Positions 12,649 through 27,594 of a stretch of 37,520 nt of DNA are shown one piece after another. The notes under the pieces were generated by a model. That model did no database searches. It worked only from the letters and a program-made list of their open reading frames with translations, and had not been told where the DNA came from. Where the stretch lies: contig VYDB01000121.1 in NCBI GenBank assembly GCA_009843635.1, forward strand, positions 1 to 37,520, given 5' to 3'. Positions within the stretch are counted from its first letter, which is position 1, and each line of letters starts with the position of its first letter. A program made the position numbers and the translations under genes. Source of the stretch: Gammaproteobacteria bacterium. GTDB taxonomy: Bacteria > Pseudomonadota > Gammaproteobacteria > Pseudomonadales > Azotimanducaceae.

Positions 12649-13880
12649 AGGATCTCATCCGCCACCTGCGCGTCGAATTGGCTGGCGTAGACCACCAACG
12701 CTTGGCCGTGGCCTTCTCCGGTGGCCTCGACTCGACCGTTCTCCTGCATGCCGCCGCCGCCCTGCCGGCCCCGGTGCTCGCCGTACACGTCAATCACGGC
12801 CTGCATCCAAGCGCCGACCAGTGGCAGGCGCATTGCGCAGCGGTCTGCAGGTCACTGGGCATCGAACTGCTATGCCAGCGCGTTGAGGTGGCGGCGGGCA
12901 ACGTCGAGGCGCAAGCACGGCGCGCCCGCTACCAAGCCTTTGACGCCCTATTGGACGCTGGCGATCTCTTGCTGCTGGCCCACCACCAAGACGACCAGGC
13001 GGAAACGGTGCTGATGCGGCTCGCCCAGGGGCGGGGCGCTGCGGCCATGCCCCGCACCCGGCGACTGCCTGGCGGCGCGGCGCTGCTGCGTCCGTTCCTC
13101 GGCATCCCGAAGCGCACGCTGCAGGCCGCCGCCGAAGAGCTTGGCCTTGACTGGTTGGAGGATCCCAGCAACGCCGACGCCACCTACGACCGCAACTTCC
13201 TGCGCCATGAGGGTCTGCCCCACCTGGCCGAACGCTGGCCCGGCCTGAATGCCGCCTTGGCGCGCGCCGGGAAGGCCCAAGCCGACACCGAAGCGTTGTT
13301 GCGCCATCTGCTGAATCGCGAGGCGCTGCCCTTGAACGACTTGCCGCTTGACCTTCGGCCACTGGCGCTGCGCGCTTGGCTGGCCCGTTTCGATGAACAG
13401 GGCGCCAGCGAACGGGCGTTGGCTGAATTCGCGGCCCAGTTCGAGGCCCCAACCGACGCCCAACCGGAACTGCGCTTGCGCCGCGGGTGCCTGCGCCGTT
13501 GGCGCGGCGCGGCGCACTACGTTGCGCCACCTCCGGCCTTGGCGCCCTGCTATGAACTGCAGCCGCCCGGCGCGTTGCGGCTGCCCCACGGCGAATTGGT
13601 GGTTGAACGAGCCGGCAGCGGCGGGTTTTGCGCGGCGGGCGTCTTGACTGTTCGATTCCGCCGCGGCGGGGAACGGCTTCGGTCAGCCCAGGGGTCGCGG
13701 TCGCTCAAGCAGGCGATGCAGGATGCCGGCCTGCCGCCTTGGCTAAGATCCAGCTACCCGTTGCTGTACAGTGGCGATGCGTTGGTCGCGGTTCCGGGCA
13801 TTGCGGCTGCTGCCTGCGATGAGCGGAAGGCGGAACCGCGCTGGCGAGCGATTTGGAACAAGGGGGGAAAACTTGGCTGA
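12645..13880 (+). CDS. tilS: tRNA(Ile)-lysidine synthetase
   Basis: TilS attaches lysine to C34 of the tRNA-Ile CAU anticodon, changing its charging and decoding from Met to Ile; it is essential in most bacteria. The 411-residue protein has the PP-loop SGGLDST at 25-31, VHVNHGLHP, the LLLAHHQDDQAETVLMRL segment and WLEDPSNAD-YDRNFLRH, all typical of TilS. A C-terminal substrate-binding region with RFRRGGERL and LKQAMQDAGLPPWLR follows. The GTG start overlaps the dnaE stop (GTGA). The 3' end overlaps the TTG start of the LacI-type gene by 8 nt. Confidence 0.96.
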   Translation: MKDLIRHLRVELAGVDHQRLAVAFSGGLDSTVLLHAAAALPAPVLAVHVNHGLHPSADQWQAHCAAVCRSLGIELLCQRVEVAAGNVEAQARRARYQAFDALLDAGDLLLLAHHQDDQAETVLMRLAQGRGAAAMPRTRRLPGGAALLRPFLGIPKRTLQAAAEELGLDWLEDPSNADATYDRNFLRHEGLPHLAERWPGLNAALARAGKAQADTEALLRHLLNREALPLNDLPLDLRPLALRAWLARFDEQGASERALAEFAAQFEAPTDAQPELRLRRGCLRRWRGAAHYVAPPPALAPCYELQPPGALRLPHGELVVERAGSGGFCAAGVLTVRFRRGGERLRSAQGSRSLKQAMQDAGLPPWLRSSYPLLYSGDALVAVPGIAAAACDERKAEPRWRAIWNKGGKLG

Positions 13881-14913
13881 AGCCGGCCCCAAGAAGGTCA
13901 CCATTTTCGATGTTGCCGAGCGTGCGGGCGTTTCCATCAAGACCGTCTCGCGGGTGGTGAACAACGAATCCAACGTGCGCGATGCGACCCGCGAGAAGGT
14001 GCTGGGCGCCATCCGTGAACTGCACTACAAGCCCAACGCAGCCGCCCGGGAGTTATCCGGCAAGCGTTCGCGCCTGGTGGGGCTGGTTTACGAGAACGCC
14101 CAGGAATTCAGCTACCTCAAGGACGTGCTCAACGGCACGCTCGATGCTTGCGAGGCGCGGGGCTACTCGCTTCTGCTTTGCCCCCTCGCTTTGCCGAACC
14201 CCGACATCGCGGCGCGGGTCAGGGAGTTCGCCACCCAGGCCCGCGTCGAAGGCATTGTTCTGCCTGCCCCATTGGGGGACGTTCCGGCCGTCACCGCGCT
14301 GCTGCAGCAATTGCGCATTCCCGTTGCTGCGATAGCCCCCAAGGATCCGCAGCCCGAGGAGATCAACGTGAGCTGCAATGACGGGGAGGCGACCCATTCT
14401 CTCGCGGAGGTCCTGATTGAACAGGGACATCGAGCCATCGGGTTCATCAAGGGGCATCCGGACCATGGCGCGAGCGCCGTGCGGTTTGCCGGATACCGGC
14501 GTGCCTTGGAACGGCATGGCATCGCATTCTCGGCCGCCTTGGTTCGGCAGGGCTACTTCGATTTCGATTCCGGCAAGACCGCGGCGAGCGAACTGCTCGA
14601 TCTGGCGGAACCGCCGAGCGCCATCGTCGCGAGCAACGACGACATGGCTGCGGGTGTTTTGTTCGAGGCCCGGGAGCGGGGCTTGTCCGTGCCCGGTGAC
14701 CTGTCCGTTGTCGGCTTTGACGACACCCAGATCGCCTCTCGCCTGTGGCCGCCGCTTACCACGGTGCGCCAACCCATCATGCAGATGGCCGAAACCGCCG
14801 CCGGGCTCCTGATCGACAAGTTGAACGGCGAGGCGGTGCAATCGCCGGACGAGCCGTTCGAATGCGAAGTGGTCATCCGCAACTCCACCGCACCAGTGGC
14901 GTCAACCACCTGA
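13873..14913 (+). CDS. LacI/GalR-family transcriptional regulator of the carbohydrate locus
   Basis: A 346-residue repressor-type regulator. The helix-turn-helix is at about 11-30 (IFDVAERAGVSIKTVSRVVN), the hinge helix YKPNAAARELSGKRS precedes LVGLVYEN, and a periplasmic-binding-like sugar sensor domain follows to ASNDDMAAGVLFEARERG and VVGFDDTQIASRLWPPLTTVRQP. I chose the TTG at 13873 because AGGGGGG (13861-13867) lies 5 nt upstream and the protein then starts just before the HTH as in the family. A longer frame to 13771 would only add tilS-overlapping residues. The gene overlaps tilS by 8 nt, so it may be transcribed with the housekeeping cluster. Palindromes of the kind LacI proteins bind occur 20 nt after its stop and before the receptor gene, so it very probably represses those genes until a sugar ligand releases it. 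The ligand is unknown; a beta-glucoside or similar oligosaccharide fits the neighbours. Confidence 0.93.
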   Translation: MAEAGPKKVTIFDVAERAGVSIKTVSRVVNNESNVRDATREKVLGAIRELHYKPNAAARELSGKRSRLVGLVYENAQEFSYLKDVLNGTLDACEARGYSLLLCPLALPNPDIAARVREFATQARVEGIVLPAPLGDVPAVTALLQQLRIPVAAIAPKDPQPEEINVSCNDGEATHSLAEVLIEQGHRAIGFIKGHPDHGASAVRFAGYRRALERHGIAFSAALVRQGYFDFDSGKTAASELLDLAEPPSAIVASNDDMAAGVLFEARERGLSVPGDLSVVGFDDTQIASRLWPPLTTVRQPIMQMAETAAGLLIDKLNGEAVQSPDEPFECEVVIRNSTAPVASTT

Positions 14914-14931
14914 TACTTCACCTCTACTTCA

Positions 14932-14961
14932 TTGACAGCGCTGTCAGCTACTTGGTAAAAC
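14932..14961 (+). promoter_or_regulatory. Candidate sigma70 promoter of the glycosidase operon
   Basis: TTGACA (14932-14937) is a consensus -35 box. TAAAAC (14956-14961) at 18-nt spacing is a 4/6 match to the -10 box. The -35 box overlaps the LacI operator, so binding would block RNA polymerase. The first gene starts 41 nt further down with AAGGGGAGG before it. Confidence 0.6.
14933..14946. promoter_or_regulatory. LacI-type operator O1
   Basis: TGACAGCGCTGTCA is a perfect 14-bp palindrome with the central CG typical of LacI-family operators. It lies 20 nt after the LacI-type gene, over the -35 box of the promoter of the next gene. Two close variants (18110-18123, 18144-18157) occur only before the receptor gene, which supports a shared regulator. 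Confidence 0.75.
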
Positions 14962-15001
14962 ACCGCGCCTTGTAACTGCCAAGGTTGAAAAAGGGGAGGC
15001 A

Positions 15002-16300
15002 ATGGGCGTACGAGCGCCAGCCCGTCGGGCGTTGCTGTGCCTGGCCGGCGTGTCGATGATCAGCGCCGCCATTGCGCAATCCGCTCCGGTGCCCGTGGAA
15101 ATCAAGGGCGAGGCCGGCCACTTCAGGCTGTTCCGTGGCGGCGAACCCTATGAGGTCCGGGGTGCCGGCACCCAGTCCGTGGACGATCTCGACTCGCTCG
15201 CCCGTCACGGGGCCAACTCGGTGCGGAACTGGGCGGTTGGCGACGGCAGCGTTCTCGACCGGGCGCAGGAACTCGGTCTCACGGTGGCCTTGTGCCTCGA
15301 CATCGAACGGGAACGGCATGGCTTCGACTACAGCGATGCAGCGGCGGTCAACGAACAGTTCAATCGCGTACGGGCTGAAGTTCTGGCGCATCGGCACCAT
15401 CCGGCGCTGCTGGTCTGGATCATCGGCAACGAGTTGAACCACGACTACCGCAACCCTGCCGTTTACGATGCCGTGAACGACATCTCGAAGATGATTCACG
15501 AACTCGACCCCCACCATCCGACCACCACGACCACGGCAGGCATTGACCCGTCATTGGCGCGGGTGATCGAGGCGCGGGCGCCGGACTTGGACTTCCTGAG
15601 TGTCCAAGTTTATGGCGGGCTGGTCGATCTGCCGGAAGCCTGGGTGAATGTTCGCTTGGAGATGCCGCTGATGGTGACGGAGTGGGGCACCATCGGCCAT
15701 TGGGAAGTGCCGCGGACGACTTGGGGAGCGCCCATCGAGCCTACGAGCACGGAAAAGGCGCACCGCTTCCTGGAGGGATACGAGCGGGTGCTGGCGCCGA
15801 TGTCCGGCAGGCTGATCGGCAACTATGCGTTCTTGTGGGGTCAGAAGCAGGAACGCACCCCCACTTGGTACGGGGTTTTTACGGCAGACGGCCGACGCAC
15901 GGAGGCGGCCGATGCGTTGCAACGCGTTTGGACCGGGCGCTGGCCAGCGAATCGCGCGCCCCGATTGCACGACCTGCTGTTGGACGGCAAACGCGCCACG
16001 GACGACGTGCGCTTGGCGCCAGGCGGCTCCTATGTCGCGTCCGTGCGGGCCGCAGACCCAGACCGGGATGCGCTGACCTATGACTGGCGCGTGATGCGGG
16101 AAAGCGACGCCACGCAGTCCGGCGGCGACCCGGAGGACATCCCTGAGGAATACCGCCTACCCAACTCGGACGTTCGGTCCGCCGAGATCTCCTGGCGTGC
16201 GCCGCAGGAACCGGGCGCGTACCGCCTTTATGTTTACGTGGACGATGACCAAGGCGGCGCCGCGCACGCCAACGTCCCTTTTTTGGTCGTCGGAACCTGA
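15002..16300 (+). CDS. Exported clan GH-A glycoside hydrolase (GH2/GH5-like barrel) with Ig-like C-terminal domain
   Basis: A 432-residue enzyme with a signal peptide (about residues 1-25, AIAQS cleavage region), so probably periplasmic. The middle is a TIM barrel of clan GH-A. WIIGNELNH carries the likely acid/base E144 after the conserved Asn, and LMVTEWGT carries the likely nucleophile E227. Residues 320-432 (RLAPGGSYVASVRAADPDRD... to VDDDQGGAAHANVPFLVV) look like a PKD/Ig-like beta-sandwich. It lacks the two beta-sandwich domains that precede the barrel in ordinary GH2 enzymes, so the exact family (GH2-C-like, GH5, or a GH17/GH72-like glucanase) cannot be settled by reading. As first gene after a LacI operator and just before a GH3 gene (GGAGGT between them), it probably trims an imported oligosaccharide, perhaps a beta-glucan. 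Confidence 0.82.
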   Translation: MGVRAPARRALLCLAGVSMISAAIAQSAPVPVEIKGEAGHFRLFRGGEPYEVRGAGTQSVDDLDSLARHGANSVRNWAVGDGSVLDRAQELGLTVALCLDIERERHGFDYSDAAAVNEQFNRVRAEVLAHRHHPALLVWIIGNELNHDYRNPAVYDAVNDISKMIHELDPHHPTTTTTAGIDPSLARVIEARAPDLDFLSVQVYGGLVDLPEAWVNVRLEMPLMVTEWGTIGHWEVPRTTWGAPIEPTSTEKAHRFLEGYERVLAPMSGRLIGNYAFLWGQKQERTPTWYGVFTADGRRTEAADALQRVWTGRWPANRAPRLHDLLLDGKRATDDVRLAPGGSYVASVRAADPDRDALTYDWRVMRESDATQSGGDPEDIPEEYRLPNSDVRSAEISWRAPQEPGAYRLYVYVDDDQGGAAHANVPFLVVGT

Positions 16301-16319
16301 TTGAACTGGAGGTCGTTCG

Positions 16320-18146
16320 ATGTTGAACGCGGAGCACGAAGCCGTCGCCAGGAATTTGCTGGAGAAGATGAGCCTCCGGCAGAAGATCGGCCAGATGGCC
16401 ATGGCGGAGCGCCTCGCGGTGGAGCCGGTGGACGTCAAGCGACATGGTCTCGGCGCGGTGCTGTCCGGAGGCGGCTCCCATCCGGGCGGCAATGCGCCCG
16501 GCGACTGGGTGCGGATGAACGATGCGTTCTGGCAGGCCGCGATGGCCGATGACGATGCGCCGGGCATCCCGATTCTGTATGGCTGCGACGCGGTGCACGG
16601 ACACAACAACGTTCAGGGCGCCACGATTTTTCCCCACAACATCGGGCTTGGCGCCGCGGGAGATGCCCGATTGGTCGCCGAAGCCGGTCGCGTCACGGCT
16701 CGGGAAATGCTCGACAGCGGCTTGGACTGGAACTTCGCCCCGACCCTTGCGGTGGTGCAGAACTGCCGGTGGGGGCGCACCTACGAGAGTTTCGGGAACG
16801 ACCCCGAGCGGGTCGCCGCCTGTGGGCGGCACTACGTCGAGGCCCTGCAGGCCGAAGGCATCATCGGTTGCGTCAAGCATTGGGTGGGGGACGGAGGCAC
16901 CCGGCACGGGATGGACCAAGGCGAGACCACGCTGCCTTGGCAAGAGCTGGAAAGCACGCACGTTGCGCCCTATTACCCGGCGCTTCAAGCGGGCGTCATG
17001 ACGCTGATGGTGTCCTTCAATAGCTGGAACGGCGAGAAGTGCCACGGACACCGCTTCCTGGTCACCGATCTGCTCAAGGAGCGGCTTGGCTTCGACGGCC
17101 TGGTGCTGTCCGATTGGGACGGCGTCAACTATCTCGACGAAGACTACGGCACCGCCATTCGCCTGTCGGTGAATGCTGGGCTCGACATGTTCATGGTTCC
17201 GGAGCGGTGGCGGGAGTTCATCGATGCCTTGGAGGCGCAAGTTCGGCTTGGGCATGTGAGCACGGCTCGCATCGACGATGCGGTGCGGCGCATCCTGCGC
17301 ACCAAGTTGCGCTATGGGCTGTTCGACATGCCGAGGCCCGCCCAGCGGCGGGGCGCGGGCACGGGCTGCACGGGCAGCGCGGAACACCGGGATGTGGCGC
17401 GGCGCGCGGTTCGGGAATCGCTGGTGCTGCTGAAGAACGAGGGCGGCCTGCTGCCGTTGGGGCGGCACCAAAGGATGCTGGTGGCCGGCAAGAACGCCCA
17501 CAACCTCGGCCACCAGTGCGGCGGCTGGACCCGGAGCTGGCAGGGCGAGACCGGCAACGACACCATAGAGGGAACCTCCATCTGGGAGGGCATTCGCGAA
17601 CTTGCGCCCCATGCGCAGCTCAGCGTGGACGGGACGGGCGAGGACGCCGACTCGAGGGAGCACGAGGTCGCACTGGTCGTCATCGGCGAGACGCCCTACG
17701 CGGAAGGCTTCGGCGACATCCGCTCCGGCGATGCCTTGGTCGTGGAAGCCGGTTCCACGGTCAATGGCCTCATGAATCCGCTCGAGCCCTACGCACGCTC
17801 GCTGGAACTGGCTGAATCCCACCCGGAGGATCTGGCCTGCATCCGCCGCATCGCTGCAAAGGGCATCCCCGTGGTCGTCGTCCTGGTTTCCGGCAGGCCG
17901 TTGGCAGTCGGCCGGGAACTCGCCGCTTCCACCGCATTCGTGGCGGCCTGGCTGCCGGGGACTGAAGGCCGAGGCGTTGCCGAAGTCCTGTTGGGTGACA
18001 GTGACTTCAAAGGCCGGCTGCCGCTGCCCTGGCCGGGCACTGGCGACCCGGCGGATGGCGACTGGCAGTTCCCTTCGGGGTTCGGATTGAGCTATGCGTC
18101 CAAGGGGTTTGACAACGCTGTCGGCATGCACTATAAGGCGGGATGA
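16320..18146 (+). CDS. Glycoside hydrolase family 3 beta-glucosidase-like enzyme, no signal peptide
   Basis: A 608-residue GH3 enzyme of the two-domain, plant exo-glucanase-like kind. It removes terminal sugars, usually beta-glucose, from oligosaccharides. The barrel shows SLRQKIGQM, PILYGCDAVHGHNN (83-96), FAPTLAVVQNCRWGRTYESFGNDP, VKHWVGDGGT and the nucleophile D265 in LVLSDWDGV. The second domain has ESLVLLKNEGGLLPL and GETPYAEGFGD (456-466), where E457 aligns with the acid/base of barley exo-glucanase I as I recall it. Closely related bacterial enzymes are usually exported. This one begins MLNAEHEAVA with no signal sequence and a clear GGAGGT 6 nt upstream, so it should act in the cytoplasm, in keeping with the GPH transporter at the end of the locus. 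Its 3' end contains the promoter and an operator of the receptor gene. Confidence 0.95.
   Translation: MLNAEHEAVARNLLEKMSLRQKIGQMAMAERLAVEPVDVKRHGLGAVLSGGGSHPGGNAPGDWVRMNDAFWQAAMADDDAPGIPILYGCDAVHGHNNVQGATIFPHNIGLGAAGDARLVAEAGRVTAREMLDSGLDWNFAPTLAVVQNCRWGRTYESFGNDPERVAACGRHYVEALQAEGIIGCVKHWVGDGGTRHGMDQGETTLPWQELESTHVAPYYPALQAGVMTLMVSFNSWNGEKCHGHRFLVTDLLKERLGFDGLVLSDWDGVNYLDEDYGTAIRLSVNAGLDMFMVPERWREFIDALEAQVRLGHVSTARIDDAVRRILRTKLRYGLFDMPRPAQRRGAGTGCTGSAEHRDVARRAVRESLVLLKNEGGLLPLGRHQRMLVAGKNAHNLGHQCGGWTRSWQGETGNDTIEGTSIWEGIRELAPHAQLSVDGTGEDADSREHEVALVVIGETPYAEGFGDIRSGDALVVEAGSTVNGLMNPLEPYARSLELAESHPEDLACIRRIAAKGIPVVVVLVSGRPLAVGRELAASTAFVAAWLPGTEGRGVAEVLLGDSDFKGRLPLPWPGTGDPADGDWQFPSGFGLSYASKGFDNAVGMHYKAG
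18109..18137 (+). promoter_or_regulatory. Strong sigma70-like promoter for the TonB receptor gene, inside the GH3 coding end
   Basis: TTGACA (18109-18114), a 17-nt spacer and TATAAG (18132-18137) make an almost ideal sigma70 promoter. The expected start point is near 18144, giving a leader of about 97 nt before the receptor ATG at 18240. Two operator palindromes flank it. The promoter lies within the last codons of the GH3 gene, so the receptor operon can be expressed separately from the glycosidases. Confidence 0.75.
18110..18123. promoter_or_regulatory. LacI-type operator O2 (over the -35 box)
   Basis: TGACAACGCTGTCG differs from the perfect operator at 14933 by two bases and keeps the central CG. 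It covers the -35 box of the receptor promoter. Its centre is 34 bp from that of O3, about three helical turns, so two repressor dimers could sit on the same DNA face. Confidence 0.65.
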
Positions 18147-18157
18147 CAGCGTTATCA
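18144..18157. promoter_or_regulatory. LacI-type operator O3 (at the expected start point)
   Basis: TGACAGCGTTATCA is an imperfect palindrome with one half site identical to O1 and a second variant half. It begins in the stop codon of the GH3 gene and lies at about +1 of the receptor promoter, a classical repressor position. Confidence 0.65.
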
Positions 18158-18239
18158 TTTTTTCACGCAGCAGCAGGTTCGAGAACGCTGCGCATTGGAA
18201 GTTGGGAATCGCCACCAAGTGGCCGGGGAGAGACGTAGC

Positions 18240-21218
18240 ATGCCTACCGATGTATTCAAGAAGACGCCGATTGCGGCGGCCGTGTCGCTGGCCATAGCGG
18301 GCGGCCTCGCCCATGGGCAAGAGGATGCGGGAGCCGCCGCGCAGGGGGAGGTGATCGAGGAGGTCGTCGTCGTCGGCATCCGCCAGAGCCTCAAGCGGTC
18401 CATGGACCTCAAGAGGAACCGGGATGGCGTTGTCGATGCGATCACCGCGGAAGACATCGGTGATTTCCCCGACAGCAATTTGGCCGAGTCCCTGCAGCGC
18501 ATCACCGGCGTTTCCATCGACCGCGAACGCGGCGAAGGCGCGCGGGTCACGGTTCGCGGCTTCGGTCCTGACTTCAACCTCGTGCTGCTCAATGGCCGGC
18601 AGATGCCGACGGCAGGCGGCGGCAATGAACCGTCCGGCCGCTCCTTCGACTTTGGCAACCTCGCCTCGGAGGGCATCAGCTCGGTGGAGGTGTACAAGAG
18701 CGGCCAGGCGAACGTGCCCACCGGCGGCATCGGCTCCACCATCAACATCCGCACCACCCGCCCGCTGGACAATCCCGGCATGACTTTCACGGCCGCGGCG
18801 AGCGCCCTGATGGATAGTTCCACCGAGGAGGGCAAGGACGCAACGCCGGAGATTTCGGCCCTGTTTTCCAACACCTTCGCCGACGACACGGTCGGCATCG
18901 CCTTAAGCGCCGTGCGCCAAGAGCGCAACAACGGCGCCAACACCGCCAATGTCGGCGGCTGGCGGACGTTCCAGGGCGACGTGAACAACTGCTGGTGCGG
19001 CATCGGTCGGTCGGAGTGGGGCGGCATCCCGCCCGCCGGTGACCCCAATCAGCAAAATCGCCCCGGCGACGACGACCTGTACTCGGTGCCACAGGCCATT
19101 GGCTACGAACTGGCGGAATACGACCGGGTGCGCACCAACGGCCAGCTCACCCTGCAGTGGCAGCCGAGTGAGCGGCTCGTGGCGACGCTGGACTACACCT
19201 ATTCCGAAGTGGAGCTGGAGCGCACCTACAACAATCTCTCGGCCTGGTTCAATTTCGGGGGGCAGGAAACGCTCTGGACCGACGGTCCCCAAGCCACGCC
19301 CCTGACCTACACCGAAAACTCGTCCAACAGCGACTACTCCATGGGGGCTGGACAGGACGCTTGGCAGACCAAGAACGGCTCCACCGGGCTGAACCTGATC
19401 TGGGACGTCACCGACCGGCTGTCCCTGGAGTTCGACTATCACGACTCCACCGCCAAGCGCCGTCCGGACAGCCCCTTCGGCGACTCCGCCCTGCTGTCCA
19501 CAGCCGCTTTCAGCCGCGACAAGACCACTGGCTACTTCGGCAAGGACCTGCCGGTTCTAGAGCTGACCTTGGGCAACCCGCTGTCGCCGGACGACATGAT
19601 CGTCACCGGCAGCGTGTTCACGAACAACTACGCGAAGATGGGCATTGAGCAGGCCAAAGTGGCGGGCAGCTTCGAGTTCGACTTCGACTTCATCGAGAGC
19701 GTTGACTTCGGCATCCAGCTCACGGAGGTCAACAACCGCTCGGCCGGCTCCGTGGTGCAGCGCGACGCCTGGGGAGGCGTCACCCAACCGGGCGCCATTG
19801 CCGACCTGATGTCTCCGGCCTCGTCGGAAGACGCCTTTGATGAGGTGCCGGGCGGCGGCGATTCGCGGCGGCAAACGGACTTCTACACGTGGGAGATGGA
19901 CGCGGTGATCGACCGCACCGAAGCGCTGATGGCTTCCGGCGACGCGACTATCTTCATGCTCACGGACATGGGCGACTGCGGCACGGGCCTTTGCACCTCA
20001 AGCCGCTTCACCTCCGACCGGCGCACCCAGGAGGAGACCGAGGCGGCGTACATCCAAGTGAACATGGGCACCGATCTCGGACCGACCTACGTGGACATTC
20101 GGGTGGGGCTGCGCTACGAGCAGACCGACATCGACTCCCAAGCGCTCTCGCCCGCCTACACGGCCATCAACTGGGTGGCCGGCAACGAGTTGACCGCCGT
20201 GCAGGGCGACCCGGATTTCACGGAGCTGAAGGGAGACTATGACGTCTTCCTGCCAAACTTCGACTTCAAGATCGACCTGACCGACAGCTTGGTGGGGCGC
20301 TTCTCGTACAGCGAGACCATGACCCGGCCCAACTACGGCGACATCCAAGGTGGCCAGACCATCAATTCGCTGTTGCGGGTTGACGGGGGCACCGGCAATC
20401 GGGGCAACCCGAACCTGTTGCCGTTCGAGTCCCAGAACATCGACGTTTCCTTCGAGTACTACTATGGCGAAGACAGCTACGTTGCCGTCGGCTACTTCCA
20501 CAAGGACGTGGACAACTTCATCGGCACCGCCTCCGTGGTGGAGGATACTTTTGGTCTGCCCCATCCCGCCCTAGGCCCACTCGGCGACGAGGCGCGAGCA
20601 GCCACCGGCAGTTCGGATGGCGGCACCCTGTATTCGTGGATTCTCGAAAACCGCGCCGATGCGCCCGGTGTGGATGCCGCCAACGGCATCATTTCGGGCG
20701 TGGCTGGCCGGGATCCGGCCTCGCCCTTCAACCTGACCGTGCCGGTGAACATCGAGCAGGCCACCATGAAGGGCTGGGAGTTCGTCATCCAGCACACCTT
20801 CGGAGACAGCGGCTTTGGCTTCATTGCCAATGCCACCTTGGTGGAGGCGGATGTCGGCTACGACAACTTCAGCCTTGAGCAGCAATTCGTGCTCACGGGC
20901 CTAAGCGACTCCGCCAACCTGATCGCCTTCTACGACAAGAACGATCTCAGCGTGCGGGTCGCGTGGAATTGGCGGGACGACTTCCTGGCCGGCACTGGCC
21001 AAGCCAACGTCGGCGCCGGGCCACCGACGCACACCGCCGACTACCAGCAGCTTGACCTCAGTGTGAGCTACTGGTTTACCGACCAGATACAGGCGTACTT
21101 CGATGTGCTCAACCTCACCGATGAAACCACGCATGTATATGGCCGGGACAAGCTGCAGACGCTGTTCGCGGGCCAGAACGGGCCGCGCTACAACCTAGGC
21201 ATCAGATACAAGTTCTAA
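18240..21218 (+). CDS. TonB-dependent outer-membrane receptor (Xanthomonas/Caulobacter type)
   Basis: A 992-residue outer-membrane receptor that imports a ligand using TonB energy. A signal peptide (MPTDVFKKTPIAAAVSLAIA to about residue 27) is followed by a TonB-box-like EEVVVVGIR. The plug reads RDGVVDAITAEDIGDFPDSN, AESLQRITGVSIDRE, GARVTVRGFG, LNGRQMP and GGIGSTINIRTTRPLD, which is the pattern of the TIGR01782 receptors linked to carbohydrate uptake. A long beta-barrel ends in RYNLGIRYKF with the terminal Phe of outer-membrane barrels. I chose ATG 18240 (GGGGAG 9 nt upstream) over a longer frame from 18195, because the signal peptide starts there. It is preceded by a LacI-controlled promoter and followed by a hairpin terminator, so it is probably made in larger amounts than the genes behind it. 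The ligand is inferred to be the oligosaccharide handled by the locus. Confidence 0.95.
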   Translation: MPTDVFKKTPIAAAVSLAIAGGLAHGQEDAGAAAQGEVIEEVVVVGIRQSLKRSMDLKRNRDGVVDAITAEDIGDFPDSNLAESLQRITGVSIDRERGEGARVTVRGFGPDFNLVLLNGRQMPTAGGGNEPSGRSFDFGNLASEGISSVEVYKSGQANVPTGGIGSTINIRTTRPLDNPGMTFTAAASALMDSSTEEGKDATPEISALFSNTFADDTVGIALSAVRQERNNGANTANVGGWRTFQGDVNNCWCGIGRSEWGGIPPAGDPNQQNRPGDDDLYSVPQAIGYELAEYDRVRTNGQLTLQWQPSERLVATLDYTYSEVELERTYNNLSAWFNFGGQETLWTDGPQATPLTYTENSSNSDYSMGAGQDAWQTKNGSTGLNLIWDVTDRLSLEFDYHDSTAKRRPDSPFGDSALLSTAAFSRDKTTGYFGKDLPVLELTLGNPLSPDDMIVTGSVFTNNYAKMGIEQAKVAGSFEFDFDFIESVDFGIQLTEVNNRSAGSVVQRDAWGGVTQPGAIADLMSPASSEDAFDEVPGGGDSRRQTDFYTWEMDAVIDRTEALMASGDATIFMLTDMGDCGTGLCTSSRFTSDRRTQEETEAAYIQVNMGTDLGPTYVDIRVGLRYEQTDIDSQALSPAYTAINWVAGNELTAVQGDPDFTELKGDYDVFLPNFDFKIDLTDSLVGRFSYSETMTRPNYGDIQGGQTINSLLRVDGGTGNRGNPNLLPFESQNIDVSFEYYYGEDSYVAVGYFHKDVDNFIGTASVVEDTFGLPHPALGPLGDEARAATGSSDGGTLYSWILENRADAPGVDAANGIISGVAGRDPASPFNLTVPVNIEQATMKGWEFVIQHTFGDSGFGFIANATLVEADVGYDNFSLEQQFVLTGLSDSANLIAFYDKNDLSVRVAWNWRDDFLAGTGQANVGAGPPTHTADYQQLDLSVSYWFTDQIQAYFDVLNLTDETTHVYGRDKLQTLFAGQNGPRYNLGIRYKF

Positions 21219-21228
21219 AAGCAAACGG

Positions 21229-21259
21229 AAAACGGGCCGCGCAAGCCGCGGTCCGTTTT
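21229..21259 (+). terminator. Hairpin terminator or attenuator between receptor and halogenase genes
   Basis: A 13-bp stem (AAAACGG-G-CCGCG paired with CGCGG-T-CCGTTTT, one G-T wobble, 5-nt loop) begins 10 nt after the receptor stop and ends in TTTT. No new promoter is evident in the 40 nt before the halogenase ATG, so partial read-through probably sets a lower level for the following genes. Confidence 0.75.
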
Positions 21260-21299
21260 GGTAGGGTTCGCAGGGCACTGGGCTTAAGGGCTTCGGGCG

Positions 21300-22868
21300 A
21301 TGAATCGGCCAACCCGGACGGTTGTGGTGGTGGGGGGCGGCACCGCCGGATGGATTACCGCCAACCGAATTGCGGCCGAGCATCCCGGCGGCGGGCACGA
21401 TTCGTTGCGGGTGGTGCTCGTGGAGTCTCCCGACATACCGACCATCGGCGTCGGCGAGGGGACTTGGCCGTCGATGCGCTCGACCCTGCAAAGCCTCGGC
21501 CTCTCCGAAGACGAGATGATCCGCGCCACCGATGCCAGCTTCAAGCAGGGCACCCGGTTCTTCGGATGGGCAGGCAACGGCGATGCGACGGACACCTACT
21601 GTCATCCCTTCAGCCTGCCGTTGGAATACGCAAACCTGAATCCCGCCCGATATTGGCTGGAACAGGGCCGAGGGACGCCCTTTGCCGATTTCGTCACGCC
21701 CCAGGCCCGAGTGATCGCCGAGGGCCTTGCCCCCAAGCAATTGGCGACTCCCGAATACGCCTTTACCCTGAACTATGGCTATCACCTCGATGCGGGCAAA
21801 TTCGCCGCGCTGCTGCACGGGCATGCGGCAGGGCAGCTCGGCGTACGCTACGTCGCGGGCAATGTGCGGCAGGTCGAGTCGCACCCGGACGGGGACATCG
21901 CGGCGTTGGCGCTTGACACCGGCGAACGCATCGAGGGCGATCTGTTCGTGGATTGCACTGGCCAGCGGGCCTTGTTGATTGGCGAGCACTACGGCGAGCC
22001 CTTCCACTCCGTGCGAGGCCTGCTGTTCAACGATCGGGCCATCGCCGTCCAGGTGCCTCATGCGGCATCGGGGGACGCCATCGCATCGGTGACTCGCGCC
22101 ACTGCGCAGCCTGCCGGATGGATCTGGGACATCGGGCTCGGCTCCCGCCGGGGCTTAGGCCATGTTTACTCCAGCGCCCACACCGACGAAGAAGCAGCGC
22201 AACGGGCGCTCCGGCGCTATGTCGAACGGACCTCCCCGGGCATCGACCCGGACTCGCTCAACACTCGGACCATTGCGTTCGAACCGGGCTATCGCCAGGC
22301 GCCCTGGATCAGCAACAGCGTCGCCGTGGGCTTGTCAGCCGGTTTCGTTGAACCGCTGGAAGCCTCGGCACTCGCCCTGATCGAGCAGTCGGCGTCGATC
22401 ATAGCCGGGCAACTGCCGAGGGACCGGCAGCTCATGGACGTGGTTGCGCGGCGCTTCAATGCGAAGATGGGCTACCACTGGGAGCGGATCATCGAGTTTC
22501 TCAAGCTGCACTATGCGACCAGCCGCCGCGACGACAGCGAGTACTGGCTGGACAACCGGGCAACGGACTCATGTCCGGAAGGGTTGCGCGAGAAATTGAC
22601 CCTGTGGCGGCAACAGCCGCCCTGGCACGACGATGCGCCGCGCTTGGACGAACTGTTCCCTTCGGCCAGCTATCAATACGTTCTGTACGGCATGGGCTTC
22701 AAGCCCTGCCATACCGGCGCCGACACGGCGCCCTACGCCCGCCTGCGCGAGCGGGCGGATGAGGTGTTCCACGGCGTGCTCGAGCAGGGCGCGCGGATGG
22801 CGCGGGCGTTGCCGTCGAACCGAGAGCTGCTTTGCGCCATCGCGCAACGCGGACCTGGGCAGGCTTGA
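21300..22868 (+). CDS. Flavin-dependent tryptophan-halogenase-family protein 1 (variant WxWxIG motif)
   Basis: A 522-residue FAD-binding protein of the tryptophan 7-halogenase family, whose members use FADH2, oxygen and halide to halogenate aromatic rings. The FAD motif GGGTAGW is at 12-18, GVGEGTWPSM at 50-59, the catalytic lysine position at K82 (ASFKQG), and AGFVEPLEASA at 347-357. The second signature WxWxIP reads WIWDIG (274-279), with Pro replaced by Gly. GEATIP has also become GEGTWP, so substrate or activity may differ from classical enzymes. Homologues sit beside TonB receptors in many Proteobacteria with unknown natural substrate, and BrvH, one such enzyme, brominates indole in vitro. 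It starts 81 nt after the receptor stop, behind a hairpin, and is followed at 2 nt by the SapC-like gene. Confidence 0.9.
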   Translation: MNRPTRTVVVVGGGTAGWITANRIAAEHPGGGHDSLRVVLVESPDIPTIGVGEGTWPSMRSTLQSLGLSEDEMIRATDASFKQGTRFFGWAGNGDATDTYCHPFSLPLEYANLNPARYWLEQGRGTPFADFVTPQARVIAEGLAPKQLATPEYAFTLNYGYHLDAGKFAALLHGHAAGQLGVRYVAGNVRQVESHPDGDIAALALDTGERIEGDLFVDCTGQRALLIGEHYGEPFHSVRGLLFNDRAIAVQVPHAASGDAIASVTRATAQPAGWIWDIGLGSRRGLGHVYSSAHTDEEAAQRALRRYVERTSPGIDPDSLNTRTIAFEPGYRQAPWISNSVAVGLSAGFVEPLEASALALIEQSASIIAGQLPRDRQLMDVVARRFNAKMGYHWERIIEFLKLHYATSRRDDSEYWLDNRATDSCPEGLREKLTLWRQQPPWHDDAPRLDELFPSASYQYVLYGMGFKPCHTGADTAPYARLRERADEVFHGVLEQGARMARALPSNRELLCAIAQRGPGQA

Positions 22869-22870
22869 CT

Positions 22871-23620
22871 GTGGCTGACTTCGCGCTGCTGAACAACGTC
22901 GATCACCAGGACGTGCGCATCATCACCGAGCGGTCCGCCCGTTACGGCGACGCCGTGATGCAGGTTCCCACCTTTCCATTCGAGTTCCGCAACGTCCAGG
23001 CGTTCTACCCCATCCTGTTTCAGCAGGATGCGAACGGCGGCTTCTATCCCGTGGCGCTGTTCGGCTTTCAGGAAGGGGAGAACCTCTTTCTCGACGACGA
23101 CGGCTGGCACGCCGGGTACGTGCCGGCGATGGTGCGGCGCGAGCCTTTCCTGATCGGCTTTCAGGACTCCAAGGATCCGAGCAATCCGGGGCGAACCCGC
23201 GTGCTGTCGCTGGACATGGCGCATCCGCGGGTGAGCGCCGATGCCGGGGAGGCGTTGTTCCAGCCATTGGGGGGGCGTACGCCCTTCTTGGAGGATGCGG
23301 CCGATCTGCTGGAGACCATCTACGCGGGCATCGAGCACAACAAGGCCTTCACTCGGGCCCTGGCCGAACATGACCTGATCGAGACCGTCACCTTGGAAAT
23401 CGAGTTGAACGACGGCACCCGGAACCAGTTGATCGGCTATCACTGCCTCAACGAGGAGAAGGTGCAGGCATTGTCGGGAGGAACGCTGGGCGAATTCAAC
23501 CGCGAGGGCTTTCTGGCGCCGCTGTTCATGGCCTTGGCCTCCATGGCCAACATTCAGCGCTTGGTGGAATTGAAAAACGAATCACTGGAAGGCGGGCAGG
23601 CCAGTGACCTGGATCTCTGA
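22871..23620 (+). CDS. SapC-like protein
   Basis: A 249-residue protein matching the SapC family, named for a Campylobacter gene of the S-layer locus and of unknown biochemical role. Typical features are the N-terminal ALLNNVDHQDVRI, FPFEFRNVQAFYPILF, the GFQEGENLFLD segment and DLLETIYAGIEHNKAFTRAL. No signal peptide or membrane segment is seen, so it is probably cytoplasmic. I chose the GTG at 22871, 2 nt after the halogenase stop, because family members start just before the LNxVDH motif. A longer frame from 22832 would only overlap the halogenase. It overlaps the next gene by 17 nt. Conserved placement between halogenase and cupin genes suggests a shared complex or pathway, which is inference. 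Confidence 0.88.
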   Translation: MADFALLNNVDHQDVRIITERSARYGDAVMQVPTFPFEFRNVQAFYPILFQQDANGGFYPVALFGFQEGENLFLDDDGWHAGYVPAMVRREPFLIGFQDSKDPSNPGRTRVLSLDMAHPRVSADAGEALFQPLGGRTPFLEDAADLLETIYAGIEHNKAFTRALAEHDLIETVTLEIELNDGTRNQLIGYHCLNEEKVQALSGGTLGEFNREGFLAPLFMALASMANIQRLVELKNESLEGGQASDLDL

Positions 23621-24620
23621 TCTCAAACCGATGCCGGCCTTGGACTGCGCGGACGGCGTTGTCCCGGAATCGGTGTTCGACGCCGGTGTGCCCGTGCGCC
23701 TGAACGGGCTGGTGAGCGGCTGGCCTGCGGTGCGCGAGTGCGGTGCTTCGGCCGAGTCGGCCGCCCGCTACCTCGCCCGGTTCTGGTCACAAGCGCCGGT
23801 GACGGCCTACGTCGGGGATGCGTCGATCGACGGCCGGTTCTTCTACGACCCTGAGTTCACCGGGTTCAACTTTCGCGCCGGCAAGGCAACCCTGCCCCAG
23901 ATATTCGAGAAGCTCGCCGAACCGGAGCGCGACGAGCGCATGGCGACCATCTACGTGGGTTCAACGCCGGTCGATGAGTGGCTGCCGGGATTCCGCTCGC
24001 AAAACGACGTGCGGCTGCCGGCGGACGATGCGCTGGTGAGTTTCTGGCTCGGCAACCGGACCCGGATTTCCGCTCACTACGACTTTCCCGACAATCTGGC
24101 CTGCGTGGTTTCCGGGCAGCGGCGGTTCACGCTGTTTCCGCCTGACCAGGTCGGCAACCTGTACGTCGGCCCCTTGGATCGGACGCCTTCGGGCCAGGCC
24201 ATCAGCTTGGTCGATTTCGCGGCGCCCGACCTCGAGCGATTCCCCAAGTTCGCCGATGCCATTGAGCACGGGCAGACCGCGGTGCTCGAGCCGGGAGACG
24301 CCGTGTTCATTCCCAGCATGTGGTGGCACCATATTGAATCGATGGCGCCGTTCAACCTGTTGGTCAACTACTGGTGGTGCATGACGCCGGCCGCGATGGG
24401 GTCACCTTCGGAGGCCTTGCTGCACGCCATATTGGCCTTGCGGGAGCTTCCCCCGCGGCAACGGGAAGCCTGCCGCAGCCTGTTCGATCACTACGTGTTC
24501 GATGCTGACGACTCAACTTGCGAGCACATTCCCGAGGCCGGCAGGGGATGGCTCGGCCCGCTCGACGAGACGGCGGCGAAGCGCTTGCGCGCGGAGCTGC
24601 TCAACAAGCTGAATCGCTGA
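23604..24620 (+). CDS. FIH-like cupin/JmjC Fe(II)- and 2-oxoglutarate-dependent hydroxylase
   Basis: A 338-residue cupin_8/JmjC protein. The metal triad is H158-x-D160 (ISAHYDFPDN) with distal H242 (PSMWWHH). LFPPDQ, a YVGPLD segment, ERFPKF, LEPGDAVFIP and WWHHIES follow in the same order and nearly the same words as in human FIH, the asparaginyl hydroxylase of HIF, as I recall its sequence. R173 stands where FIH uses Lys to hold 2-oxoglutarate. Hydroxylation of a protein side chain or a small molecule is therefore likely. The GTG start overlaps SapC by 17 nt. The second halogenase follows after 31 nt with its own GGAGG. No signal peptide is visible. Substrate is unknown; proteins of this class recur beside halogenases and TonB receptors. 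Confidence 0.88.
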   Translation: MTWISDLKPMPALDCADGVVPESVFDAGVPVRLNGLVSGWPAVRECGASAESAARYLARFWSQAPVTAYVGDASIDGRFFYDPEFTGFNFRAGKATLPQIFEKLAEPERDERMATIYVGSTPVDEWLPGFRSQNDVRLPADDALVSFWLGNRTRISAHYDFPDNLACVVSGQRRFTLFPPDQVGNLYVGPLDRTPSGQAISLVDFAAPDLERFPKFADAIEHGQTAVLEPGDAVFIPSMWWHHIESMAPFNLLVNYWWCMTPAAMGSPSEALLHAILALRELPPRQREACRSLFDHYVFDADDSTCEHIPEAGRGWLGPLDETAAKRLRAELLNKLNR

Positions 24621-24651
24621 CCCTCAATTTAGGAGTTTCAGGAGGCACGCC

Positions 24652-26142
24652 TTGCAGCACGGAAAGATTCACAAGGTCGTGGTCGCCGGCGGCGGAACCG
24701 CCGGCTGGATGGCCGCCGCATCGCTGGCGAAGCTCTTGGGCAAAACGCTCGACATCACCTTGGTGGAGTCCGATGAGATCGGCACCGTGGGCGTTGGCGA
24801 GGCCACCATTCCCACGTTGATCACCCTGCACGACCTGCTCAAGATCAAGGAACAGGACTTCCTCCGGGCGGTGCAGGGCACCTTCAAGCTGGGCATCTCG
24901 TTCGAGAATTGGCGCGACGTGGGGGAGGACTACATCCACTCCTTTGGCTGGACCGGCCAGGACAGTTGGGCCGCCGGATTCCAGCATTTCTGGCTCAAGG
25001 GCCGGAAAATGGGCATCAGCCGGGAGTTCGGCGAGTACTGCAAGGAATGGTTGGCCGCCAAGCGCAACCGCTTTGCGGTCATGGCCAAGCAGGGCCTCAA
25101 CTACGCCTACCACATCGACGCTTCGCTGTATGCGCGCTTCCTGCGCGGCATGGCGGAGGCGCACGGCGCCGTGCGGCAGGAGGGCCGCATCGACCGGGTG
25201 GAGCAGGATCCAGAAAGCGGCTTCATCACCGGCCTGCGGCTGCAGTCCGGGCAGCTTGTCGAAGGGGACCTGTTCATCGACTGCACCGGCTTCCGGGGCC
25301 TCCTGATCGAGCAGACCCTGCAGGCGGGCTACGACGACTGGCGGCACTGGCTGCCCTGCGACAGCGCCGTCGCGGTGCAGACCGAGTCCGTGCGGCCGCC
25401 CATTCCGTACACCCGGGCCATTGCCCGGGAGGCCGGTTGGCAGTGGCGCATTCCGCTGCAGCACCGGGTCGGCAACGGCGTGGTGTTCAGCGCGGAGCAC
25501 TGGTCCGATGACGAAGCCGTCGAGCGGCTGCTCGGCAAGGTGCAGGGCCGGGTGCTTACGGAACCTCGGGTGATCAAGTTCAAGACCGGCTCGCGGCGAC
25601 GGCACTGGCACAAGAACTGCGTGGCCATGGGGCTGTCCTCCGGGTTCATCGAGCCCTTGGAGTCAACCAGCATCCATCTCATTCAACGCGCCATCATTCG
25701 GCTTATGCAGATGTTCCCCTATGACGGCATCCGGCAACCGGATGTCGATGAGTTCAACAACCAGATGCGCTTCGAAATCGACAACGTCCGGGACTTCATC
25801 GTCCTGCACTACCATGTGACCGAGCGGACGGACACGCCGTTCTGGCGTCACTGCAGGGGCATGGACATACCGGATTCCCTCCGGCACCGCATCGAGCTGT
25901 TCAAGCAGGCGGGCCGGGTGTTCAAGGTGCCCACGGAGCTTTTTGGCGAGAACTCGTGGATCCAGGTGATGCTCGGCCAAGGGCTCACGCCTGAGCAGTA
26001 CCACCCGATCGTCAACATGATGAGCGAGGATGAATTGCGGCAATTCCTCACCGGCATTCACGGTGCCACGGACAGCTTCGTCAGCCAGCTCCCGGAGCAC
26101 CAGCGCTTCATCGATCACTACTGCAAGGCGGCGCCGGGCTGA
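24652..26142 (+). CDS. Flavin-dependent tryptophan-halogenase-family protein 2 (canonical motifs)
   Basis: A 496-residue flavin halogenase with all classical marks: GGGTAGW at 13-19, GVGEATIP at 47-54, catalytic K79 in GTFKLGI (the same number as in PrnA), WQWRIP at 263-268 matching WxWxIP, and SGFIEPLEST at 330-339. It therefore looks catalytically complete. The TTG start is supported by GGAGG at 24641-24645, 6 nt upstream, and by the FAD fold starting at once. It is only distantly similar to halogenase 1 of this locus, so the pair is not a recent tandem duplication. The halide and substrate are unknown: an indole or phenol group on a small molecule, or an aromatic residue of a protein, are options. 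Confidence 0.92.
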   Translation: MQHGKIHKVVVAGGGTAGWMAAASLAKLLGKTLDITLVESDEIGTVGVGEATIPTLITLHDLLKIKEQDFLRAVQGTFKLGISFENWRDVGEDYIHSFGWTGQDSWAAGFQHFWLKGRKMGISREFGEYCKEWLAAKRNRFAVMAKQGLNYAYHIDASLYARFLRGMAEAHGAVRQEGRIDRVEQDPESGFITGLRLQSGQLVEGDLFIDCTGFRGLLIEQTLQAGYDDWRHWLPCDSAVAVQTESVRPPIPYTRAIAREAGWQWRIPLQHRVGNGVVFSAEHWSDDEAVERLLGKVQGRVLTEPRVIKFKTGSRRRHWHKNCVAMGLSSGFIEPLESTSIHLIQRAIIRLMQMFPYDGIRQPDVDEFNNQMRFEIDNVRDFIVLHYHVTERTDTPFWRHCRGMDIPDSLRHRIELFKQAGRVFKVPTELFGENSWIQVMLGQGLTPEQYHPIVNMMSEDELRQFLTGIHGATDSFVSQLPEHQRFIDHYCKAAPG

Positions 26143-26184
26143 CCACTCGGCCTGCACTTCAAAACCACAAACAGGAACCAGCCT

Positions 26185-27594
26185 ATGAGCGCCATTGACT
26201 CGCGGCCTGCCCAGCCCGTCGAAAAACTGAAGTTCTCGGAAAAGCTGGGCTATGGCATGGGCGATGCCGCGTCCAACTTCTTCTTTCAGGCGTTCAACGT
26301 CTTCCTGCTGATCTACTACACCGATGTGTTCGGCTTGGCGCCGGCTGCGGTGGGCACCATGTTCCTGGTCACCAAGCTGGTCGATGCCTTCAGCGACCCG
26401 GCGATGGGCTTGGTGGCGGACCGCACCAACACGCGTTGGGGCAAGTTCCGGCCCTACCTGCTGACCATGGCGGTGCCCTACGGCCTGCTGGGCTACGCCA
26501 TGTTCCTTGGCCCGGATCTCTCGCCGACCTGGAAGCTGGTCTATGCCTACGTCACCTATTCGCTGATGATGCTGGCCTATACGGCGATCAACATTCCCTA
26601 TTCGGCGTTGATGGGCGTGATCTCACCCTCGTCCGACGAGCGGGTGAAGGTTTCCGCCTATCGATTCGTCTGCGCCTTCGGCGCCGGTTGGCTTGTCGTC
26701 ACCTTCGTGGGGCCGTTGCAGCGGCTGCTCGGCGGCGGTGACGAGGCCGAAGGCTATCGTCTCACCATGATGCTGTTCGCGGTGTTTTCCGCGGCCCTCT
26801 TTTGGTGGACGTTCGCGGCCACCAAGGAACGGGTTCAGGCGGTGCCGGTCGAGCCGAACGTGAAGGCGGAACTCGGCGCGTTGGTGCGCAACCTGCCTTG
26901 GATCGCCCTGTTCGTGTCCGGCATCTTCGCCCTGATGCAGACGGCGGTGCGCAACGGCGGCCTGCTCTACTACTTCAAGTACTACGTCGGCGACAACGGG
27001 GCCGCGCTGTTCTCGATGTTCGGCATGACATTCGACAAGGCCTCGGTCTTCATGTCGCTGGGCACCATTGCCATGGTAATCGGGGTGACCCTGACGCGCC
27101 CGCTCACGCAGCGCTTTGAAAAACAGCACTTGATGATCGCCCTGACCGCAGCAAGTGCGGTGATCAACGGCCTGTTCTTCTTCATTCCGACGGACCAGTA
27201 CTGGCTGATGGTTGCCGTCAACTGTTTCGCCACGCTGATCTCCGGCCCCTTGCCGCCGCTGGTGTTCGCCATGAACGCCGATTGCGCCGACTACGGCGAG
27301 TGGAAAAGCGGACGCCGAACGACGGCGCTGATCTACTCCGGAGGTGGATTCGCGGCCAAGCTGGGCCTCGCCGTCGGCGCCGGGCTGGCAGGGTACATCC
27401 TGGCCCTGTTCGGCTTCATCGCCAACCAGCCGCAAACGGAGACCGCACTGCTCGGCATCCGCCTGATGTTCACGGCGTTCCCCGCCGTGCTTTCCCTGAT
27501 CGCCGCCGCCGCCATTCTGTTCTACCGGCTCGACAATGCGCTGGTCAGCCGGATAGAGAGCGAGTTAGCGCAACGGCGACTGTCCGCTGACTAG
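26185..27594 (+). CDS. GPH-family sugar:cation symporter (MFS)
   Basis: A 469-residue inner-membrane transporter with about 12 hydrophobic segments, of the glycoside-pentoside-hexuronide:cation symporter family (MelB/XynB-like). The N-terminus KLGYGMGDAASNFFFQAFNVFLLIYYTDVFG, DAFSDPAMGLVADRTNTRWGKFRPYL with the family-typical Asp pair, and NIPYSALMGVISPSSDER are characteristic, as is DCADYGEWKSGRRTTALIYS near the C-terminus. It would carry mono- or oligosaccharide from periplasm to cytoplasm with Na+ or H+. It starts 42 nt after halogenase 2 and ends the LacI-controlled locus. Its stop is 4 nt from the stop of the convergent CaiD-like gene, leaving no room for a separate terminator. Confidence 0.93.
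   Translation: MSAIDSRPAQPVEKLKFSEKLGYGMGDAASNFFFQAFNVFLLIYYTDVFGLAPAAVGTMFLVTKLVDAFSDPAMGLVADRTNTRWGKFRPYLLTMAVPYGLLGYAMFLGPDLSPTWKLVYAYVTYSLMMLAYTAINIPYSALMGVISPSSDERVKVSAYRFVCAFGAGWLVVTFVGPLQRLLGGGDEAEGYRLTMMLFAVFSAALFWWTFAATKERVQAVPVEPNVKAELGALVRNLPWIALFVSGIFALMQTAVRNGGLLYYFKYYVGDNGAALFSMFGMTFDKASVFMSLGTIAMVIGVTLTRPLTQRFEKQHLMIALTAASAVINGLFFFIPTDQYWLMVAVNCFATLISGPLPPLVFAMNADCADYGEWKSGRRTTALIYSGGGFAAKLGLAVGAGLAGYILALFGFIANQPQTETALLGIRLMFTAFPAVLSLIAAAAILFYRLDNALVSRIESELAQRRLSAD

Follow-up and report, generated by a model that had tools for sequence, protein, structure and literature searches.

A carbohydrate-uptake locus carries a fixed accessory cassette of SapC, an FIH-like oxygenase, and flavin-dependent halogenases at its TonB receptor gene

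The DNA under study (the window, 37,520 nt of contig VYDB01000121.1 from the gammaproteobacterial assembly GCA_009843635.1) carries a sugar-use locus on its plus strand, at 13771–27594. This locus encodes, in order, a LacI-family regulator, a glycosidase-like protein, a family 3 glycoside hydrolase (GH3), a TonB-dependent receptor (TBDR), a flavin-dependent halogenase (HAL1), a SapC family protein, a Cupin_8 oxygenase, a second halogenase (HAL2), and a GPH-type sugar:cation symporter. It brings together a TBDR, a sugar transporter, a degradative enzyme, and a regulator, the combination by which CUT loci are recognized. We describe it as a CUT-type carbohydrate-uptake locus with a fixed accessory cassette, (HAL1)-SapC-FIH-like oxygenase-HAL2, at the receptor gene.

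The receptor gene (18240–21218) starts at an ATG, within an open reading frame (ORF) that itself opens at TTG 18195, and encodes a member of a cassette-linked TIGR01782 subfamily (651 bits; cut-off, 310). HAL1 (21300–22868; PF04820, 397.5 bits; K82 and E354) is divergent, its WIWDIG having glycine for the proline of the WxWxIP motif, whereas HAL2 (24652–26142; PF04820, 641.6 bits; K79 and E337) conforms with WQWRIP. Between them lie SapC (22871–23620), a full-length match to PF07277 (220 bits; cut-off, 28.9), and the FIH-like Fe(II) oxygenase of the Cupin_8 family (23604–24620; PF13621, 229.7 bits; H158, D160, and H242). The symporter gene follows (26185–27594; TIGR00792, 380 bits; cut-off, 231). 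The original prediction had named a receptor, a variant and a canonical halogenase, SapC-like and FIH-like proteins, and a symporter; profile matches placed all of these genes where it had put them, and both halogenase labels were right. The 2-nt gap and 17-nt overlap that it described were also read from the DNA: the HAL1 stop (22868) is followed at 22871 by the GTG from which SapC homologs of other cassettes align (the listed SapC frame opens at 22832), and the SapC and cupin genes share positions 23604–23620. Judged from this layout, balanced production via the overlaps is plausible. The source genome holds one SapC gene and two clear halogenase genes, both in this locus, with weaker PF04820 matches on two other contigs (C140 and C41).

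To collect comparable loci, three seeds were used: SapC, HAL2, and the receptor subfamily. At most five, two, or seven candidates per genome were scored, depending on the search, and counts are therefore lower bounds. Because cassettes supplied the sequences for the halogenase profile (A2) and most of those for the receptor profile (A9), the HAL2 and receptor seeds lean toward cassettes; the SapC seed gave the least cassette-leaning set. SapC was present in 36 of 276 class genomes, at 47 places, 12 of which had a halogenase (11 of 46 without the window). The remaining 35 of the 46, some of them on short contigs, had no member in the clusters formed by the cupins or receptors of cassette loci. 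In 13 further genomes, coordinates placed 23 of 32 SapC genes within 3 kb of a halogenase. The HAL2 seed gave 80 named loci, several on short contigs, and a receptor, a halogenase, SapC, and a cupin were all found in 58; the other 22 comprised 6 with a receptor and halogenase only, 7 with a halogenase only, and 9 other mixtures. The receptor seed matched at E ≤ 1e-100 in at least 44 of 397 phylum genomes, with at least 58 places above 900 bits, and subfamily profile scores were separated by a gap (≥878 versus ≤663). From this search 54 loci were assembled, 53 covering 54 further places above 900 bits and one representing a 656-bit place. SapC was found in 38 of them, while 13 had no cassette gene, 2 had only HAL1-HAL2, and 1 had only a cupin. 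Assuming 1–5 SapC genes per genome, ~4-Mb genomes, and 16-kb windows, about one or fewer of the 54 would be expected to contain SapC by chance.

We then examined the 100 loci, including the window, that hold a high-scoring receptor, SapC, a cupin, and HAL2. The order receptor-SapC-cupin-HAL2, on one strand and spanning less than 10 kb, was kept in 97 of them, the exceptions being L128, L139, and L260; because loci were chosen for holding all four genes, this figure speaks for order and not for presence, and a few near-duplicates are included (e.g., L148 and L149). HAL1 was present in 53. By class, 27 of the 100 are Gammaproteobacteria, 17 Alphaproteobacteria, and 11 Betaproteobacteria, with 44 not resolved to class and the window left unassigned. 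Cassette-bearing isolates include members of Sphingopyxis, Shewanella, and Pseudoxanthomonas, and Caulobacter vibrioides gives matches to both PF07277 and PF04820. The recurrence near TonB receptors stated in the original prediction is borne out. The neighborhood comparison that had been proposed shows the four genes to be a conserved set with the TIGR01782 receptor, far beyond chance, so that the refuting condition of missing co-conservation does not apply. Genes of this kind already carry annotations beside TonB receptors in species of Xanthomonas and of Caulobacter. One explanation, that the genes are neighbors by history only and are not functionally coupled, would fit cassettes that lack HAL1, or SapC and the cupin. 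Against it stand the order kept across three classes, the overlapping genes, and the invariance of the catalytic residues, and we regard it as highly improbable. We conclude that the cassette is genuine, that it is widely distributed, and that it is coupled to the receptor. Its fixed gene order in many bacteria points to a function in the uptake system for these enzymes, which have long lacked an explanation.

The halogenases appear equipped for catalysis. The glycines of the flavin adenine dinucleotide motif and the catalytic Lys and Glu were invariant in 50 HAL1 and 73 HAL2 sequences (alignments of 51 and 74 rows, the window's own sequence being entered twice). Their closest solved chains were 6y1w (Xcc4156) for HAL2, at 674 bits with residues 6–493 aligned, and 2pyx for HAL1, at 526 bits. 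HAL1 also matched the QhpG profile at 49.7 bits, below the cut-off of 240; as we take QhpG to be a flavoenzyme oxidizing a peptidyl Trp, this match is a hint, no more. HAL1 and HAL2 labels were assigned from a FastTree tree in which the HAL1 clade (50 sequences; support, 100) contains all 42 halogenases upstream of SapC, 2 downstream of it, and 6 from loci without SapC. A separate clade holds the other 73 downstream halogenases together with 32 from SapC-less loci. A set of 15 SapC-less halogenase loci (L196, L206, L210, L213, L214, L216, L223, and L228–L235) includes seven, the first seven named, with another kind of TIGR01782 receptor beside the halogenase. An earlier generalization from eight genomes, that nearly every true halogenase adjoins such a receptor, was dropped, since only these seven of the 15 later loci fit it. 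Separately, six loci (L113, L130, L134, L150, L257, and L258) showed a receptor with two halogenases, SapC and the cupin not being found there; named hosts of such loci are Colwellia, Alteromonas, Aliiglaciecola, and Aestuariibacter.

The cupin is likewise intact. The Fe(II) facial triad HxD...H was kept in all 83 cupins aligned, not all of which come from cassettes, and the cupin profile matched FIH at 1.5e-30 as well as JmjC protein hydroxylases. An invariant Arg (R173; 83 of 83) occupies the position of a Lys in the FIH alignment, presumably the 2-oxoglutarate-binding K214; with Arg in its place, the cupin may still bind 2-oxoglutarate. Five loci (L052, L053, L056, L090, and L099) carry another Cupin_8 gene of this family past HAL2, encoded on the other strand.

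Next, we compared protein distances between genes of the same locus, expressed as correlations uncorrected for species relatedness. Over the 100 complete loci, receptor distances followed those of HAL2 (rho 0.70) and SapC (rho 0.62). For GH3 the value was 0.06 over 41 loci, among which the GH3 near the cassette may differ in orthology, and in the same 41 loci receptor-HAL2 and receptor-SapC reached 0.82 and 0.69. Intermediate values were obtained for LacI (0.35; 46 loci) and the symporter (0.34; 17 loci), and HAL1 followed SapC (0.59) and the cupin (0.60) more than the receptor. SapC and HAL2 are therefore co-inherited with the receptor rather than with the neighboring GH3.

Within the window, the genes upstream of the receptor are the LacI-family regulator (listed ORF 13771–14913, plus strand, its actual start probably lying further in; PF00356/PF13377), a glycosidase-like gene with GH2-C/apiosidase-like features (15002–16300, plus strand), and a GH3 beta-glycosidase gene (16320–18146, plus strand; PF00933, 246 bits; PF01915, 112 bits). 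Both matches of the glycosidase-like protein are below cut-off (PF13204, 25.2 bits against 26.5; PF02836, 20.5 against 21), and its N-terminus resembles a signal sequence by eye. A promoter and terminator scan gave no more matches than shuffled sequence. Elsewhere in the window, a 1134-aa frame on the minus strand (695–4099) resembles, by eye, a single-chain biotin-dependent acyl-CoA carboxylase, with biotin carboxylase, biotin site, and carboxyltransferase all in one chain.

Across loci, glycosidases near the cassettes varied, including GH3, GH16, GH1, GH43, GH95, GH97, and GH67. The neighbor scan covered 180 of 377 chosen proteins (100 from a first batch of 102 and 80 from a fourth batch of 91) lying up to 8 kb from a cassette, operon membership not being required. 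One fixed glycan as the target of the cassette was rejected on these grounds, and the same variety argues against the specific aryl glycoside that had been offered as one option for the substrate. A broader explanation is that the enzymes act on aromatic or aryl-glycosidic compounds entering through the receptor and symporter, which halogenation or hydroxylation would detoxify or open to catabolism. Cassettes do occur in uptake loci, alongside a sugar symporter and glycosidases; Xcc4156 is reported to act on indole and its derivatives, with bromide (PMC7336383); and co-variation with the receptor would also be expected were the enzymes to act on the ligand of the receptor. However, the diversity of the glycosidases, the lack of co-variation between GH3 and the cassette, and a dedicated SapC that this explanation leaves without a role count against it, and we consider it unlikely.

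A search for recurrent ORFs of 25–120 aa around 100 cassettes, out to 2.5 kb, gave a best cluster of 6 loci. With no small ORF shared more widely than this, we found no co-encoded precursor peptide, and a precursor like those of ribosomally synthesized and post-translationally modified peptides was rejected. The absence of a conserved small ORF also bears on the proposal that, in the presence of sugar, the cassette makes a small halogenated metabolite, be it a signal, an antimicrobial, or a scavenger, which the receptor would then re-import. Natural-product flavin halogenases are homologous to these enzymes, as that proposal would have it, but neither a nonribosomal peptide synthetase condensation domain nor a polyketide ketosynthase was among the 25 commonest Pfam families in the scans of 100 and 80 neighbor proteins (the top 25 of 120 and of 95 matched families, respectively). 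One AMP-binding protein was among these commonest families. A metabolite product is, in our estimate, quite improbable.

SapC takes its name from Campylobacter S-layer work. Its AlphaFold2 model is confident (predicted local distance difference test [pLDDT], 96.7), and a fold search of the predicted structure against PDB and BFVD gave no match at E ≤ 0.001, nor did a sequence search against solved structures give a relative at E ≤ 1. N84 and W92 (window ORF numbering) are near-invariant. As SapC lies between the enzymes and is, with the receptor, a constant non-enzyme partner, it could itself be the substrate or carrier, modified at these residues by the halogenases and cupin before acting on surface proteins. 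Both residues are, however, equally conserved in SapC without halogenase neighbors (0.97 and 1.0 of 32), and this possibility appears very slim. The 35 halogenase-less SapC loci (L036–L081) offer other clues. Seven share a neighbor cluster whose one scanned member is a two-partner-secretion TpsB protein, and representatives of other clusters are a FecR-domain protein (5 loci) and an HlyD/M50 protein (4 loci); ordinary enzymes also recur, such as aconitase (5 loci). In 17 of 32 such loci (a raw count), an ORF of ≥2,000 aa lay on the same strand within ~8 kb. These lone-SapC contexts suggest a general role around surface-protein export.

Weighing these data, we consider protein-directed modification by the cassette the best single explanation, with a probability of roughly 0.4. 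The step from a conserved cassette to protein modification is one that we infer, from the co-inheritance with the receptor, the enzyme families involved, the lack of a co-encoded peptide, and the contexts of SapC. The halogenases and cupin would be cytosolic, as no signal sequence was seen by eye, and would act on a protein, most likely the not yet exported receptor chain or a surface protein working with the receptor. SapC would be an adaptor presenting the exported protein to the enzymes. Trp would be halogenated, perhaps brominated, by HAL1 and HAL2, and a side chain would receive a hydroxyl group from the cupin, leaving the cell with an extracellular surface chemically tuned to scavenge sugars. 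In its full form, a dedicated pre-export maturation in which SapC delivers the receptor or its partner to yield surface receptors with halogenated Trp and a hydroxylated side chain, this proposal is doubtful.

We also looked for receptor residues that follow the cassette. Columns of Trp, Tyr, His, Asn, and Asp were tested, and the receptor was modeled with AlphaFold2 (pLDDT, 88.5). Conserved Trp at 256, 351, 526, 660, and 926 (1007-aa numbering) probably lie at extracellular ends or loops, judging from strand lengths in the model. Compared with distant TIGR01782 receptors, W351, W526, W660, N664, and N925 had seemed cassette-specific, and they fell as candidates once 13 cassette-less near relatives were added. 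Most losses of N664 and N925 fell within a single set of similar receptors (L279–L288, grouped without a tree). As a separate observation, N925 is Asn in 106 of 106 SapC-linked receptors and Ala or Ser in that group. The receptor tree shows 11 changes in the presence of HAL1, which allowed a comparison of independent pairs.

Several results weigh against modification of the receptor or its partner. The 13 receptors with no adjoining cassette gene retain the conserved extracellular Trp, which fits plain sugar binding by these residues. No tested receptor residue tracks the enzymes, and no Trp or Tyr column matched HAL1 presence: among the columns differing by more than 0.55, the sole Trp column, W275, agreed in 2.4 of 10 independent pairs and disagreed in 1.0, while N394, the strongest column whatever the residue, reached a median p of 0.06. 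Receptor-cupin co-variation (0.39; 100 loci) hardly exceeds that of receptor-LacI, and receptor-HAL1 (0.23; 53 loci) lies below it. SapC is missing from 16 of the 54 receptor-seeded loci, and 8 of the 15 SapC-less halogenase loci show no TIGR01782 receptor (two, L230 and L235, being on short contigs), so not every such halogenase is receptor-linked. Finally, the enzymes would have to meet the receptor before its export. The test with cassette-less receptors is weakened because all 13 genomes carry 2–9 halogenases and 1–4 SapC genes elsewhere, by which these receptors could possibly be modified in trans. Of the modification system envisaged in the original prediction, the conserved, receptor-tied gene set stands; halogenation or hydroxylation of a target is putative, and the sequence comparison found no cassette-dependent residue in the receptor.

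Were modification of the receptor or its partner correct, many Proteobacteria would halogenate proteins as a matter of routine, this would be what a large group of orphan halogenases natively does, and a protein target would mean unusual post-translational chemistry of outer-membrane receptors. Even as it stands, the tie of Xcc4156 relatives to a receptor subfamily, SapC, and an FIH-like oxygenase narrows the substrate search to a few testable candidates, and SapC, a family for which we found no solved fold, gains a context.

In one genome (G710), the HAL2 of a TBDR-SapC-cupin-HAL2 cassette (L294) is 90% identical to Xcc4156. A second halogenase there (L295) has the same arrangement, and a third (L296) has no partners in the 10 kb examined, of which ~1 kb is downstream. 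Structures and assays exist for Xcc4156 and BrvH; both are reported to have open active sites and not to act on free Trp, their native substrates are reported as unknown with a peptide considered possible (PMC7336383 and PMC5945002), and a second halogenase gene lies upstream of brvH (PMC5945002). Elsewhere, colony-morphology hits in Sphingomonas include a single transposon insertion in a "tryptophan halogenase" (PMC11340318), and halogenases are speculated to affect virus-host receptor interactions (PMC11337851); the cassette is not described in the accessible text of either. Nor was a description found in the literature searched, whose coverage mostly leaves out subscription papers, a weak sign of novelty.

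Compared with known systems, HAL2 has the catalytic K and E and the WxWxIP motif in common with the flavin-dependent indole halogenases Xcc4156 (6y1w) and BrvH (6frl), whereas the receptor link is seen in the cassettes and not in the accessible text of the halogenase papers, where "TonB" does not occur (PMC7336383, PMC8269204, and PMC5945002). The cupin resembles FIH and the JmjC protein hydroxylases in its profile match and HxD...H triad but differs from FIH in the invariant R173. SapC matches PF07277 over its full length and here belongs to a receptor cassette. As in CUT loci (PMC1790865), a TonB receptor is found with glycosidases, an inner-membrane sugar transporter, and a regulator; "halogenase," "SapC," and "cupin" do not occur in the accessible main text of that paper, and the cassette is, relative to such loci, an added module.

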